Origin: Gottschalkiaceae bacterium SANA
Lineage (GTDB): Bacteria > Bacillota > Clostridia > Tissierellales > GPF-1
Direction of reading: 5' to 3'
Length of the DNA: 64,000 nt
Assembly (NCBI GenBank): GCA_036323355.1
Contig: AP028876.1
Span: 3,162,001 to 3,226,000, forward strand
The position numbers were made by a program, and so were the translations under genes. This document shows positions 46,682 through 52,400 of the stretch, one piece after another; the first letter of the stretch is position 1, and each line of letters starts with the position of its first letter. The notes beneath the pieces were generated by a model. That model did no database searches. It saw only the letters and a program-made list of their open reading frames with translations, and was not told where the DNA came from.

Positions 46682-48238
46682 CTATAAGCGCACGCATTTT
46701 CCCTCTTCAATAACCGTTTCTACCTTTCCTTGAGCAAAAGAAAATCCCTTTAAGGCTGGAGCATCCAAGATCCCTTGCTTTATCGCTTCCACCAGGGTAT
46801 TTGGCTCATGGAGCGGCCCTATAGCTCGGATCTTCCTAAAAATTTTCTCACCTTGATCCAAGAGTTCCTCTACTCGTTCCTTCACTTCAGGATCACACAT
46901 GGGATCTGGCAGACCCCGATTTGCCAACAGAACAGCTTGGTCCACCATTAAAACCGATTCTAAAATTTCATCTGCCCTTGCACGGCGTTTTGCTTCGCAA
47001 AAGGCAACAACATGTACAATGTCCGGTTTAAGCGCCATTCCATAACTCATCTGAAAAATAAGATTACCCTTTGCTAAATTCTCATCGGCAGGACAAGATA
47101 AAAGACCTGTACGAATCATTCGATAAATACGAAAGTTTTTATCTTCTAGGCTTTCAATCCACATCATTTTGGCTATTTGTTTGGCCAAGTCCATTTTTGG
47201 AGATAATTTTGGTGGGGTCATCAGCATCATCTGCTGTACATATTCCTTTACCCCCATCTGCTTTGCCAAAAAAGCCCCCATATAAGCGGTCACAATCTCT
47301 GTTACATCATCGCAATAACGCAGTGCCCATTGATGAGACTCATTGGTTTCCACAGGAACACCAAGACTAACAGCTTTTTGAATCGCACGCAGATTCTCTT
47401 CAATGGCCTCTTCCAAAGGACGCTCGCTTCGCCGATCTAGGTCCGAATACCAAGTAATTGGAATGGCAGACCATGCATTGTTTAAGATTCGATGGTGAAG
47501 TTCAACAAAACGATCCAATTGATTGGTACCCGCATAGCTGCGCACCAAAGGGAAGTTTCCTCGTCTGGTCGCTTGAAACAAGCGCTTCCAGTCATCTTCC
47601 GTGCGGATGGGGGCCCCGCCGGCTCCATCCTGGGCGCGATCCATTTTCTCCGGTTCAAAATAATACTGCTGGCAATTTTGATCCGGTGCCAAGGAAATGA
47701 TATCCAGTAACTCGCTTTCCGCAAGCTTTTCTACCTCAATGATTGTTTCTTCCAAACTATCAAGGCCAATGTGATGGCGAATCAAGGGATAGGGCGATTT
47801 CCAATCCACCCGTTCTCTCAATGATTGGGGATGTTGCAATTCATGAATCTCCTCTTTCGAAGCCCGTAGGTACATCCGTGTTTTAATTTCGTTTTCCGAC
47901 CCATCAAAGATTTCCTCAAATAAATCGAGCTCCCTGGCCACTTGACAGGTTTCTTGTGTACCGCCGAAGACGAAACGACGGTTCTTCCGCAATTCTCTCT
48001 CCTCTAGGTCAAAGAGGAACTGCCTTAAAATCTGAAAAGCACCTTCCCGATTTAACCGATAACTAATAGCAATTAAATCCGGATTTTCTTTTTCAACCGT
48101 ATCCAACATAACTGCAATCGGAATTGCACTACCTAAATTGACAACTTCGTATCCCTCTTCCCGCGCAAGCATGGAGAAGCAATGAATACCCGCCGCATGC
48201 ACATCTTCGCCCAATGCGCCAATTACAATCTTTTTCAT
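46682..48238 (-). CDS. Fused cobalamin-binding/glutamate-mutase-like protein
   Basis: A 518-residue protein. Residues 1-130 form a B12-binding Rossmann domain with the DxHxxG motif (D12, H14, G17 in LGEDVHAAG) that places a histidine under cobalt, plus NLGSAIPIAVML. The remainder looks like a shortened methylaspartate mutase E-type barrel (RSYAGTNQLDRF, TPPKLSPKMDLAKQ). Such enzymes rearrange carbon skeletons by radical chemistry. The reaction and substrate are unknown. It lies 10 bp after an opine-dehydrogenase-like gene in the same operon. ATG after AGGAGGG. Confidence 0.75.
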   Translation of the reverse strand: MKKIVIGALGEDVHAAGIHCFSMLAREEGYEVVNLGSAIPIAVMLDTVEKENPDLIAISYRLNREGAFQILRQFLFDLEERELRKNRRFVFGGTQETCQVARELDLFEEIFDGSENEIKTRMYLRASKEEIHELQHPQSLRERVDWKSPYPLIRHHIGLDSLEETIIEVEKLAESELLDIISLAPDQNCQQYYFEPEKMDRAQDGAGGAPIRTEDDWKRLFQATRRGNFPLVRSYAGTNQLDRFVELHHRILNNAWSAIPITWYSDLDRRSERPLEEAIEENLRAIQKAVSLGVPVETNESHQWALRYCDDVTEIVTAYMGAFLAKQMGVKEYVQQMMLMTPPKLSPKMDLAKQIAKMMWIESLEDKNFRIYRMIRTGLLSCPADENLAKGNLIFQMSYGMALKPDIVHVVAFCEAKRRARADEILESVLMVDQAVLLANRGLPDPMCDPEVKERVEELLDQGEKIFRKIRAIGPLHEPNTLVEAIKQGILDAPALKGFSFAQGKVETVIEEGKCVRL

Positions 48239-48248
48239 TCCATCCCTC

Positions 48249-49313
48249 CTATCGATACTGCTCTAGATCCTTGACCGTGATCCCAAACTTTTCTAGGGTT
48301 CGGCCCGATGCCCGAAAATCCTGATCCATAACGGCACCCGCCAAATTAATAATCAATCCGATATGGGTCATGGGCAATCCAAACTGATGCCCTAGGCTTT
48401 CAATGGGTACCAAGCCACAAGGCACATCCTCCAAGAGATAACGTGTTTTTAGGGTTTTTGGCGCAATGATATTTCGATACACCTCATTAGATTGCACACA
48501 CTCATAGAGATTCTTTCCCGACAAGCCATAGGTCTTTCTCATCCATTCATCGACAGGCTCAATGGGAATGCGCATTTGCTCAGCCAATTCAAGCACCTCT
48601 AGGTTCATCTTTTCTATGTAAGCCGCCACACTGGGGGTAATTCCTTCGTTGTAATAACGAAAACTGGTGGTTTCTGACTCCACACGTCCCAGATTAAAAA
48701 GCATAGGTGCACAGTGAAGCAGCATGCCGACATTTCCTAATGAGGTATAGAGCATATTTTTCACCGGGATAAAGATCTCTGCCAGTAAAGCCGGCAAAGC
48801 CAATTTTGCTTCCGCTAAACGTTCCGGATGAAGCGCAGAAAATCGAACTTCCTGCTTAATCCCGTGAATCTGCACTTCGTTATTCATTACCTTTCTAGCC
48901 GCATAGAGATTGGTAATGGCTTCTAGAATAACCGGCAACTCGGTTACGCCCATTCTCAACAGGGTCCGCTCAAACTCTAGGGCACCAAAGGTACGCCCGG
49001 GATGCAAGATGATCCGCTGATCTGGTTTTATCAACGGAGCCAAGCGTTTTGCGATATCGCCGTGAGCCGTCGCAGGCGTTGTCACCATAATCCATTGACA
49101 AGCCTCTATCGCAGCTCCTAGATCCGGTGTTATACAATGCAAAGCAACTTCCCCTCTCACTTCTCCTGTCATCTTCACCCGCTTGTCTTTCATCAGTTCC
49201 TGAATATTCTTCTTACTACGATTCCACAAGCACACTTCTTCTCCCAGCAACGTGAGGTGAGCGGCCATGGCAAGCCCAGAGTTTCCGGCACCCAGTACTG
49301 CAATTCGTTTCAT
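48249..49313 (-). CDS. NAD/NADP octopine/nopaline dehydrogenase family protein
   Basis: A 354-residue dehydrogenase: N-terminal Rossmann domain with VLGAGNSGLAMAAHL (about 5-19) and VTTPATAHGDIA, and a C-terminal helical opine-dehydrogenase domain with the histidine-containing CAPMLFNLGRVE segment. Family members join an amino acid to a 2-oxoacid reductively or run the reverse reaction. Cotranscription with a B12 mutase-like gene suggests an amino-acid-derived substrate. ATG 49313 (KRIAVLGAG start); the 18-residue upstream extension is unlikely. Confidence 0.78.
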   Translation of the reverse strand: MKRIAVLGAGNSGLAMAAHLTLLGEEVCLWNRSKKNIQELMKDKRVKMTGEVRGEVALHCITPDLGAAIEACQWIMVTTPATAHGDIAKRLAPLIKPDQRIILHPGRTFGALEFERTLLRMGVTELPVILEAITNLYAARKVMNNEVQIHGIKQEVRFSALHPERLAEAKLALPALLAEIFIPVKNMLYTSLGNVGMLLHCAPMLFNLGRVESETTSFRYYNEGITPSVAAYIEKMNLEVLELAEQMRIPIEPVDEWMRKTYGLSGKNLYECVQSNEVYRNIIAPKTLKTRYLLEDVPCGLVPIESLGHQFGLPMTHIGLIINLAGAVMDQDFRASGRTLEKFGITVKDLEQYR

Positions 49314-49487: not shown

Positions 49488-49925
49488 ATGGAAAGAAAAC
49501 TTGCTATACCCTTTATCCTTTTCAGTGGTATGATCATCAGTCTAGCGAATGTAATGAGCGGAGTCCTCACTGCTAAAACCGGTCTATTGGCCGTTTCATT
49601 TTGGGTTCATTTAACCGGCACCATCCTTGCTCTTTTCTTCTATCTGAAAGATCGCAGAAAAGCATTGGTCTGGCTGCATGTCTTAAAGACTAATCCCAGC
49701 GCTTATTTAGGCGGATTATTCGGCGTGTTCGCCACGGTAATGATTGCCTATTCCGTGATGGAAATCGGCGCTTTTGTTTTAACCCTTCTTTTGATCGCCA
49801 CACAATTAATCCTTTCAATCGTTGTGGATCATTTTGGGCTTTTTGGCTTTGCACGCAATCCACTCACCAAAGAGAAAGCAATCTCTATTTGTATGATTTT
49901 AGGCGGGGTGGTGATGTTGTCATGA
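49488..49925 (+). CDS. DMT-superfamily YdcZ-type transporter subunit 1
   Basis: A 145-residue membrane protein with about five hydrophobic segments, of the YdcZ (DUF606) DMT group. Such half-size proteins work in pairs. The transported compound is unknown. ATG follows AGGAGG, and the stop overlaps the next start (ATGA), so the two halves are made together. The longer frame from 49137 overlaps the divergent gene and is not credible. Confidence 0.82.
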   Translation: MERKLAIPFILFSGMIISLANVMSGVLTAKTGLLAVSFWVHLTGTILALFFYLKDRRKALVWLHVLKTNPSAYLGGLFGVFATVMIAYSVMEIGAFVLTLLLIATQLILSIVVDHFGLFGFARNPLTKEKAISICMILGGVVMLS

Positions 49926-50365
49926 TCTTAGGCATTTCACTTGCCATGACCGCCGGTATTCTTTTATTCGGCGCACGCATTGTCAATTATCGGCTTGGTC
50001 ACTCCTTGGGTATCGCCGGGGGAAGCTTTGCCAATCATTGGATCGGCACCGTAATCAGTGCTCTTATTTTGATCGTCTTGCAGATTCCTTTTATCGCTTC
50101 ATCAGAACCCGTTGCTTGGTACGCTTGGTTGGGCGGCCCCATCGGAGCAGCCTTTGTTATGATCAGCAACTTGACCATGGGTTCTGTCTCCGTTATGATC
50201 TCTACCACCCTGATTTTTATCGGTCAGGTTGGAATGGGTATTCTCTTGGACTACACCATAACTAACCATTCAATTGCACCTAAGCAATTGCTGGGTGCCG
50301 CTCTAATTTTCGCGGGTATCCTATGGAACCAACGAGCGAATCGCAAACCAGAAAAATCATCCTGA
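49922..50365 (+). CDS. DMT-superfamily YdcZ-type transporter subunit 2
   Basis: A 147-residue membrane protein with about five hydrophobic segments, second half of the YdcZ pair. The C-terminal KQLLGAALIFAGILW is the last helix and also recurs, degraded, at 54949-55041. Coupled to subunit 1 by ATGA. Confidence 0.82.
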   Translation: MILGISLAMTAGILLFGARIVNYRLGHSLGIAGGSFANHWIGTVISALILIVLQIPFIASSEPVAWYAWLGGPIGAAFVMISNLTMGSVSVMISTTLIFIGQVGMGILLDYTITNHSIAPKQLLGAALIFAGILWNQRANRKPEKSS

Positions 50366-50486: not shown

Positions 50487-51476
50487 CTATACCGCAGAAT
50501 AATCTACAAATCTAATTTCTTCCAAATCCGTTTCTGACACACCGTAAGTATCACTCGTTAATTCTTCAACAGCGCGAATCAAAGCAATTGCATCTAATCC
50601 ATATTTTCCCATCAAATACATCTTTGAAGCACCATGAGTATAAGTATCGTCAATGCCTACTTTAATCAATTTTTTGTTCAAACCATTCTCCGCAATCACA
50701 TCTGCAACAGCCGAACCCAACCCTCCAATTTTCACATGATTTTCCATTGTAATGGTGCCATATTTCGATTTCTTGATCGATTCGATCACCAACGGATCAG
50801 TAAATGGTTTCAATGTGGAAATATGAACATGTTGAATCGAAAGACCGTATTTTCCCAAAACCGCAGTTGCACGCATCGCCTCTTCTGTACAAATGCTTGA
50901 TGAAAATATAGTAACATCAGTACCTTCCCGCAACACGCGGCCTCTGTTGAATTCCATCGGTTGATCCTTAGGAAACAGGCGCGGCACATCTTTACGCAGC
51001 ATTCGAATAAATACCGGTCCATTCACTTCTTCAGTCAGTTTTAGCACCGACTCAATTTCCGTTGCATCGCCAATGTCAAAAATGGTCATATTTGGAACAT
51101 TTCTTAAAACGGCCACATCATTAATTGCCTGATGCGTCGTCCCCCCTGGTGTCATAATTCCAGGGAGAAAGGCCACAAAGGTAACCGGTAAATTTGGATA
51201 TGCTACCGACATTTCCAACTGGTCCAATACCCTACGATATAAAAATACACCAAATGTATGTAAAAAAGGCCGATATCCCTCTCTAGCTAGGCCTGCCGCC
51301 CAGCTCACCATATTTTGCTCAGCGATTCCCATAGAAAAATACCGTTCTGGATATATTTGGGAAAACGCCTTGATTTCACAAGAACTTCCTAAATCAGCCG
51401 ATAACACAATCGCTTCTTCATGGTCTTTTGCCCATTGAATTATACTTTTCGAATGTGTATTTGTTTCGATCACCAT
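50487..51476 (-). CDS. Transketolase, C-terminal subunit
   Basis: A 329-residue transketolase fragment: pyrimidine-binding domain (EEAIVLSADLGSS, then YFSMGIAEQNMVSWAAGLAREG with the catalytic glutamate) and C-terminal domain (GRVLREGTDVTIFSS). With the N-terminal subunit it forms a split transketolase that moves two-carbon units between sugar phosphates, or a related ThDP ketolase. It is the last gene of the cluster. RBS AGAGGA before ATG. Confidence 0.88.
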   Translation of the reverse strand: MVIETNTHSKSIIQWAKDHEEAIVLSADLGSSCEIKAFSQIYPERYFSMGIAEQNMVSWAAGLAREGYRPFLHTFGVFLYRRVLDQLEMSVAYPNLPVTFVAFLPGIMTPGGTTHQAINDVAVLRNVPNMTIFDIGDATEIESVLKLTEEVNGPVFIRMLRKDVPRLFPKDQPMEFNRGRVLREGTDVTIFSSSICTEEAMRATAVLGKYGLSIQHVHISTLKPFTDPLVIESIKKSKYGTITMENHVKIGGLGSAVADVIAENGLNKKLIKVGIDDTYTHGASKMYLMGKYGLDAIALIRAVEELTSDTYGVSETDLEEIRFVDYSAV

Positions 51477-51494
51477 TTTTCATCCTCTCTTCCT

Positions 51495-52400
51495 TTACAT
51501 TTGTTCATAATATTCTTTAAAATCCTGCATTTCATCCTCTTTAATCCTGACAAAATGTAAAAATGGTTTCCGCTTTTCTAAAAGTGGAATCCCGTGAGCT
51601 GCATTCGTCATGCACAGAACAACTAAAGGTCCCTCTTTATGCTCCTTTTGACTGGCGGCTCTAATCGCACAAACATCATGTCCATCTATCGAAATGACTT
51701 TGCTTCCAAATGCGGTCAATCGTTCTTCTAACGGCTCCATATTCATTACATCATTCGTATAGCCTTCTACTTGCTGGCCGTTCACATCGATATAGATTAC
51801 TAAATTATTCAATTTATAAAACGAAGCTGCCTGTAACGCTTCCCAAACCTGACCTTCTTGTAACTCTCCATCTGACAGATATAAATAAACCTTACCAGTG
51901 TGTCCTTTTAGTTTTCGTGCATGTGCAGTTCCACAGGCGATGCTAATCGTCTGTCCCAATGAGCCCGCGGTGCATTCAAACCCAGGAGAATGCTCTGCAC
52001 CAATCATTTCCATGTTCCATCCATCAACATTGAATTTCTCAATTGCACCATACCCGATTCGTCCACATTCCGCCAATGCACAATAGAGAACAGAGGCATA
52101 ATGCGCTGGTGAAACAAAAAAGCGATCCGCTTCTTCCGTTTGTTCTCCATGATAAAGAGAACCTTTTGGATAATCCATATTGCTTTTTGAAGGAACCCCT
52201 GGAAATGGCTGCGCTTCCATGGATCCCAAACTTGGCTTTAAATGTAAGATATCCATATAAAGGGTTGCCAATGTTTCCGCCGACGAACATGCTTGTCCTA
52301 AATAACAACCGTTTCTTTCCATTGCAAGCTTCAAAATACTTTTTCTTATCCGATTTGCTGCTTTTTCAATGTCCTCTACCTTGTGCCTTTTTTCATTCAT
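51495..52400 (-). CDS. Transketolase, N-terminal subunit
   Basis: A 301-residue ThDP diphosphate-binding half with GSLGQTISIACGTAHA (about 147) and YLYLSDGELQEGQVWEAL (about 172-189), the GDGxxxEG-type metal motif (here SDGELQEG). An internal SNMDYPKGSLYHGE insertion is unusual. Split transketolases are common next to sugar operons in Clostridia. The upstream region carries motifs shared with the dehydrogenase gene at 53599. Confidence 0.88.
   Translation of the reverse strand: MNEKRHKVEDIEKAANRIRKSILKLAMERNGCYLGQACSSAETLATLYMDILHLKPSLGSMEAQPFPGVPSKSNMDYPKGSLYHGEQTEEADRFFVSPAHYASVLYCALAECGRIGYGAIEKFNVDGWNMEMIGAEHSPGFECTAGSLGQTISIACGTAHARKLKGHTGKVYLYLSDGELQEGQVWEALQAASFYKLNNLVIYIDVNGQQVEGYTNDVMNMEPLEERLTAFGSKVISIDGHDVCAIRAASQKEHKEGPLVVLCMTNAAHGIPLLEKRKPFLHFVRIKEDEMQDFKEYYEQM

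Follow-up and report, generated by a model that had tools for sequence, protein, structure and literature searches.

The gene pair in the window

We analysed a window of 64,000 nucleotides from Gottschalkiaceae bacterium SANA (contig AP028876.1, positions 3,162,001 to 3,226,000; "the window" is this whole stretch, and coordinates are counted from its first letter). Two neighbouring genes on its minus strand were of particular interest. They encode an opine dehydrogenase (DH) and a one-chain protein that joins a B12-binding domain to what looks like a glutamate-mutase-type barrel, referred to below as the mutase. The following features were assigned to the pair.

48249-49313, minus strand: opine DH gene, NAD(P)H type, 354 aa, with its ATG at 49313 and its stop codon ending at 48249 (PF02317)
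46682-48238, minus strand: gene of the one-chain B12-binding domain and glutamate-mutase-type barrel protein, 518 aa (PF02310 and predicted structure)
47945-48232, minus strand: B12-binding (Rossmann) domain, mutase residues 3-98, with D12-x-H14-x-x-G17 (PF02310)
46682-47833, minus strand: TIM-barrel isomerase domain, approximately residues 136-518, stop codon counted in (predicted model and structure comparison)
48239-48248, minus strand: 10-bp gap between DH and mutase; the mutase ribosome-binding site overlaps the DH stop codon (sequence)

A sequence-only reading of the window had placed the mutase gene 10 bp after the DH gene, and its coordinates were correct. Plausible Shine-Dalgarno motifs were seen by eye for both genes, AGGAGGG over the DH stop codon for the mutase and AAGGAG before the DH. 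The spacing and the conservation of the pair suggest that the two genes are cotranscribed. The Rfam scan of the window gave zero matches at gathering score, and the promoter search in the window gave nothing convincing (2 sites versus 5.9 expected). No full-length second copy of the mutase was found in the window's genome.

Conservation and distribution of the pair

A set of 104 mutase loci, drawn from 102 genomes, served to measure the conservation of the pair: 21 loci of a class sample, 80 of a phylum sample, two from close named relatives and that of the window itself (L and G numbers denote single loci and genomes). DH and mutase were counted as adjacent when their profile matches lay less than 400 bp apart on the same strand. 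The DH adjoined the mutase in 93/104 loci (88 upstream, 5 downstream) and stood in the same cluster in 4 others. In the remaining loci, the DH was lost to a contig end in 2 and absent nearby in 5. Four of these five unlinked genomes (G656, G732, G691 and G700) carried a DH of 399-524 bits elsewhere, and G553, which holds a mutase fragment only, had no DH elsewhere in its genome. The DH also adjoined a strongly diverged, MutL-fused form of the mutase (L142 and L143). The sequence-only reading had suggested an undescribed amino-acid-derivative route joining opine chemistry with a B12 rearrangement, and had staked this on the pair being conserved across genomes. The pair was adjacent or clustered in 97/104 loci, and this linkage, together with the DH orthologue present elsewhere in 4/5 unlinked genomes, supports that suggestion.

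Family-profile matches at E <= 1e-20 were found in 87/398 phylum-sample genomes, the window's included. When the window mutase served as query against the class sample of 391 genomes, 21 genomes besides its own had matches reaching past the B12 domain, and the 18 further genomes listed from its order had none. The distribution of the mutase family is patchy. The two close named relatives, at 85-86% identity, were Clostridiales GPF-1 and Eubacteriales CSMAG_119 (metagenome-assembled), and zero relatives were found on plasmids and viral contigs. Among 148 class genomes, all 8 with a DH above 500 bits had the mutase, a partly circular count, since all 8 DHs were rows of the query alignment.

The fused protein resembles glutamate mutase in fold

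In the window mutase, PF02310 was matched at residues 3-98 (E 9.6e-10), and residues 100-518 gave zero Pfam or NCBIfam matches at E up to 1. NCBIfam matched B12-domain models alone, all under their cut-offs, and the Met_asp_mut_E family (PF06368) was unmatched at E up to 1. Nine relatives passed the Met_asp_mut_E cut-off of 26.6 bits (L115 with 52.3, G569 with 32.1, G444 with 30.6, G656 with 30.3, and five more); the first ~390 residues of the long frame in L115 matched no family and were judged to lie outside the gene. Searches with profiles built for the family and for GlmE yielded weak matches only.

A structure of the mutase was predicted from 19 sequences, with a predicted local distance difference test (pLDDT) score of 87.4 and a predicted template modelling (pTM) score of 0.86. 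Its top solved structure by Foldseek was glutamate mutase E (E 6.4e-14). The top row of VIA-align for the model was likewise GlmE (1cb7_B, Z 35.2, root-mean-square deviation 2.8 A over 362 residues), ahead of lysine 5,6- and ornithine 4,5-aminomutase (Z 30-32) and, further down, methylmalonyl-CoA mutase (Z up to 24.8). Judging from this model, the fused protein looks like a glutamate-mutase-type isomerase. The earlier description of a B12-binding domain with intact DxHxxG fused to a mutase-E-like barrel agrees with both PF02310 and the predicted model. The barrel had also been called shortened: it covers GlmE residues 44..431 of 483, so that parts of both GlmE ends are indeed missing, but the barrel proper looks whole. 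Across the family, H14 and G17 of the B12 motif were each present in 95/95 scored sequences. D12 is Asp in the window, but the position was Cys in 82/90 scored family sequences and D in only 8/90.

MutL is an accessory protein of adenosylcobalamin (AdoCbl) mutases. A MutL gene (PF13941) stood beside the pair in 7/104 loci, and MutL was fused to the mutase C-terminus in 2 (L142 and L143). Of the neighbouring genes, that of L106 was identified by Pfam (553 bits) and the others were joined to it by BLAST clustering; 4/7 were also found in the PF13941 search. By eye, a MutL-like gene was seen upstream in three listed glutamate-mutase loci. In the fused forms (L142:1739-5383, 1214 aa; L143:6306-10007, 1233 aa), a single chain holds B12 domain, barrel and MutL, and a distant opine DH lies upstream. 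Separately, five or six MutL-family matches were found in each of G617, G765 and G692, a hint of several unassigned B12 mutases or of other MutL roles.

Taken by itself, the B12 domain scored best against methyltransferase corrinoid proteins, and the fused protein could then be a methyl-transferring corrinoid protein instead of a radical isomerase. However, the modelled barrel was closest to mutases (Z 35 versus about 16-17 for pterin-type barrels such as dihydropteroate synthase, DHPS), and MutL neighbours and fusions also speak against this assignment. Corrinoid methyltransferase proteins carry a B12-binding_2 cap domain ahead of the B12 domain. Pfam did not find this cap in the window protein and reported only PF02310, from residue 3. 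The barrel fold and MutL led us to reject a corrinoid methyltransferase, which we regard as extremely improbable.

Residues of the mutase pocket

In the available text of PMC10947579, glutamate is bound in GlmE by R66, R100 and R149 (the arginine claw) and by E171. The mutase family was aligned to the GlmE-family profile with hhalign (E 0.0017, probability 15-16%, 8% in global mode), so that the residue mapping is provisional and register errors are possible. The sequence-only reading had looked to glutamate-mutase active-site residues in the barrel, and these were not recovered: in this alignment (probability 16%), R66, R100, R149 and E171 fell on H156 (96/97), Q190 (97/97), Y235 (97/97) and P260 (87/97), respectively. 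With the same provisional mapping, GlmE Y177 corresponded to Y264 (86 Y, 11 F) and GlmE E330 to E415 (97/97). R154 and R233, two residues ahead of H156 and Y235, were invariant in 97 sequences. As aligned here, the mutase pocket has its own set of invariant residues. Because the glutamate-binding residues of GlmE appear replaced, the fused protein is probably not a true glutamate mutase.

Compared with GlmES / MutSE, the mutase shares the B12-binding Rossmann domain, a matching TIM barrel (Z 35.2), the MutL link in part of the family and, provisionally, the invariant glutamate aligned to E330. It differs in carrying both parts on one polypeptide, with an N-terminal B12 domain, in the apparent replacement of the claw and E171, and in having an opine DH as partner and often a cyclic di-AMP (c-di-AMP) riboswitch. 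D-ornithine 4,5- and lysine 5,6-aminomutase are similar in the B12 domain (27.5 bits to OraE) and the barrel fold (Z 30-32), and the known ornithine pathway likewise pairs a mutase with an amino-acid dehydrogenase. Unlike OraE / KamDE, the family lacks the lysine eleven residues past the B12 histidine, which is visible in the 3kow alignment and which we take to bind pyridoxal 5'-phosphate (PLP) in aminomutases. It was found in 0/95 sequences, position 25 being A in 86, L in 5, V in 2 and M in 2. A PLP-dependent aminomutase was ruled out on this ground.

Two further groups of homologues were observed. A diverged Met_asp_mut_E homologue (L168:1369-2817) has a MutL-like gene upstream and is different in the region of E171/Y177; it adjoins apparent lactate/malate-type and D-2-hydroxyacid dehydrogenases (by eye) and may be a hydroxy-acid mutase. 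A Met_asp_mut_E-related group in G411, G454, G492, G627, G650 and G673 (192-221 bits, frames of ~410-510 aa, one partial) was distinct from true glutamate mutase and from the mutase family of the pair.

The opine dehydrogenase and its predicted substrate class

The DH matched Octopine_DH (PF02317) with E 3.3e-41 and 141.2 bits (cut-off 30). Its best solved relative was 1bg6 (ArODH), an N-(1-D-carboxyethyl)-L-norvaline dehydrogenase, with a near whole-length match (E 1.1e-66). The available text of PMC10787698 describes a catalytic His-Asp dyad and an active-site Trp in the opine DH family, and the DH resembles 1bg6 in both. H200, W257, R291 and D296 were invariant in 96/96 linked copies, and H200 aligned to H202 of 1bg6. 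According to the same text, six metagenomic opine DHs favour L-Asp and L-Glu with pyruvate, and with the A111R/N198G change the 1bg6 enzyme lost its activity on Phe and became weakly active on Asp, while the reverse change had the opposite effect. Positions 111 and 198 of 1bg6 correspond to R107 and G196 in the window DH. Both R107 and G196 were present in 96/96 linked DHs and 4/4 unlinked orthologues, and 0/4 paralogues had either. Since R107/G196 is the published acidic-selecting Arg/Gly pair, which the DH shares with the acidic-type metagenomic enzymes, we predict that the DH takes an acidic amino acid as its acceptor. In contrast to 1bg6 and the enzymes of PMC10787698, the DH here is genetically tied to a B12 isomerase. 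The window's genome holds a further opine-DH-like gene (G000:C1:747497-748579, L207), which has neither the acidic residue pair nor a riboswitch.

A different order of reactions would start with a true glutamate mutase, which converts glutamate to 3-methylaspartate before the DH condenses 3-methylaspartate with pyruvate. The nearest fold of the modelled mutase is that of GlmE, and the DH is of the acidic-amino-acid type. Moreover, the published KM of the acidic-type enzyme mODH-582 for Asp is poor (24.8 mM; Table 3 of PMC10787698), as if its natural substrate were a different acidic amino acid. On the other hand, the residues that bind glutamate in GlmE fall on H156, Q190, Y235 and P260 in the low-probability alignment, and we consider this order unlikely.

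Judged by profiles and conserved residues, the joining of an acidic-type opine DH to a glutamate-mutase-type B12 isomerase is a widespread two-enzyme module.

A c-di-AMP riboswitch precedes the operon in many relatives

The Rfam model of the c-di-AMP riboswitch (ydaO, RF00379) matched 17/40 scanned loci, with 18 matches of 98-115 bits. A custom model was built from 16 of the Rfam matches, and the loci used for building it match by construction. The custom model found the riboswitch in 37/104 loci, and in 36 of them it lay on the same strand and <= 900 nt upstream of the first operon gene. The first gene after the riboswitch was an ATP-grasp gene in 5/36, and a short predicted frame intervened in 3 others. 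Of 39 matches, 37 fell inside the 900-nt upstream windows, a density of 430 per Mb versus 0.7 elsewhere in the loci. The other two lay ahead of an AsnB-type gene in L086 and 6 kb off in L050. As controls, the riboswitch preceded 4/4 unlinked DH orthologues and 0/4 DH paralogues, and it was found in 0/33 glutamate-mutase loci, which covered only ~1.5 kb per side. In L102, a tandem pair of c-di-AMP riboswitches stands ahead of the DH (L102:9549-9938). No cobalamin riboswitch was found by Rfam in the scanned loci or the window. Other riboswitches and T-boxes were considered as clues to the substrate and set aside: a T-box in L007, flavin mononucleotide (FMN) riboswitches in L008 and L009, and a fluoride riboswitch in L005, none tied to the pair.

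In the available text of PMC9481103, PMC7288161 and PMC7266159, this riboswitch lowers expression at high c-di-AMP and is tied to K+ uptake, osmotic stress, osmoprotectants and wall genes. The operon resembles that regulon in having the riboswitch upstream in 36/104 loci, but it is not named as a target in those portions of the three papers, and the window's genome differs in having no such riboswitch.

Ligases and other neighbouring genes

A Ddl-like ATP-grasp gene (PF07478) was found in 18 loci, on the operon's strand in 12; 6/18 were checked with Pfam. The genes of L087 and L088 fall in the same ATP-grasp cluster and were taken as ordinary Ddl, outside the 18. An AsnB-type gene stood immediately downstream of the operon in 5 loci (one Pfam-checked). 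In L086, an AsnB-type gene lies two genes upstream of the pair and has a c-di-AMP riboswitch of its own (L086:10427-12206). A c-di-AMP receptor gene (PF06153) adjoins the pair in L045. By their family assignments, the ATP-grasp and AsnB-type genes would fit an amide or peptide-type solute. A comparable combination of AsnB-type and ATP-grasp enzymes is found in the osmoregulated route to N-acetylglutaminylglutamine amide, which is not known to include a B12 enzyme or an opine DH. The compound is named as a solute in the available text of PMC1224877.

Recurrent neighbours such as V-ATPase, Lgt, RqcH and others (named by eye) were judged unrelated. For a staphylopine-like opine metallophore, no such partner was noticed in the neighbour clusters by eye, and no search aimed at it was made. 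The following feature flanks the pair in the window.

49488-50365, plus strand: a divergent pair of genes for YdcZ-type membrane proteins (drug/metabolite transporter, DMT)

The YdcZ-type pair is also present in L053 and L054, the two closest relatives, and as a guess these membrane proteins might export the product. At 50487-52400 of the window, neighbouring genes resemble two transketolase halves (by eye), with SorC-type regulators and phosphotransferase system (PTS) genes in the region; these lie outside the finding.

The neighbours also bear on a degradative role, in which the DH would split an opine oxidatively and the mutase would feed a fragment to fermentation, so that an opine or amino acid serves for energy. 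In principle, opine DHs can run in both directions, and B12 mutases take part in amino-acid fermentation. Genes of PTS and sugar type are found close to the pair in the window (by eye), apparent glycine-cleavage genes in 3 loci and a major facilitator superfamily (MFS) transporter in 5. However, no uptake system or catabolic enzyme extended beyond a few of the 104 loci (40 largest neighbour clusters, by eye), and c-di-AMP control suits osmotic or wall genes. L054 keeps a SorC-type regulator, but its pair is not flanked by the window's PTS genes, and L053 ends just past the mutase. We regard a degradative role as very unlikely.

A proposed pathway

The pairing, folds, conserved residues, riboswitch and MutL link computed here are consistent with a biosynthetic module for a rearranged acidic-amino-acid opine, which would most likely serve as a compatible solute (osmolyte). 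We give this reading a probability of roughly 55%. The cofactor form, substrates, step order, product and osmotic role that we infer are as follows. The DH would join an acidic L-amino acid (Asp or Glu type) to pyruvate, or to a 2-keto acid like it, using NAD(P)H, to give an opine. As an AdoCbl-dependent isomerase with a rebuilt pocket, in the glutamate-mutase superfamily, the fused protein would then rearrange the DH's opine. This order is weakly likely from the replaced glutamate claw and the gene order; less likely, the isomerase would make an unusual acidic amino acid, which the DH would use. In some loci, an ATP-grasp ligase or asparagine-synthetase-like enzyme could mask carboxylates. 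The product would be a compatible solute, with expression under the c-di-AMP riboswitch in many relatives. It is considered a likely osmolyte because this riboswitch heads the operon in many relatives and because some loci add the ATP-grasp or AsnB-type extension. Few B12-dependent isomerisations are known, and a B12 isomerase that acts on an N-substituted amino acid without PLP is a tentative idea. In the titles and abstract openings listed, no description of these parts combined was found; the riboswitch gene lists of Block 2010 and Nelson 2013 lay outside this search.

Several observations weigh against this reading. The RF00379 riboswitch was not found in the window or in its whole genome, and 68/104 loci showed no upstream riboswitch, some of them being cut by contig ends. 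In the tree, the riboswitch cases sit in a clade of 85 tips (node support 0.52), and the window groups outside it in a clade with L053, L054 and L032. Also outside are L043, the clade of L048-L052 and the mutase form fused to MutL. MutL was over the Pfam cut-off in only 31/52 mutase genomes and was not over it in the window's genome (best 23.4 bits versus 27). G022 and G056 have DHs of 437-446 bits but mutase matches limited to the B12 domain, so the link from DH to mutase is not strict. L032, the nearest relative beyond the trio, sits in an apparent polysaccharide cluster, and according to the available text of PMC7288161, c-di-AMP riboswitches also precede and control cell-wall genes.

These last two points favour a module that makes a cell-envelope building block, either a polysaccharide substituent or a peptidoglycan peptide, which is attached by the ATP-grasp enzyme, with c-di-AMP control serving wall homeostasis. 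In L032, the DH, a Pfam-confirmed ATP-grasp gene and the mutase stand amid apparent glycosyltransferases, a flippase and a sugar epimerase (by eye), and in other loci the ligase is similar to D-Ala-D-Ala ligase (PF07478). O-antigens with opine substituents are known. However, L032 was the single polysaccharide-type cluster among ~30 loci with neighbours listed, and a recurrent glycosyltransferase was not seen in the 40 largest neighbour clusters (named by eye). We regard an envelope product as rather unlikely.

The proposed synthesis of an opine-derived solute bears on the window in two ways. The enzymatic part applies to the window directly. The window's genome has a diadenylate cyclase; because this genome and its clade lack the riboswitch, the osmotic part applies to the window through the family only. 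For the family, an acceptor class that can be read from published mutagenesis and an RNA switch in about a third of the loci lead to concrete candidate substrates. If the reading is true, B12 supply would be tied to osmotic adaptation, and a new solute would be added to the c-di-AMP regulon.

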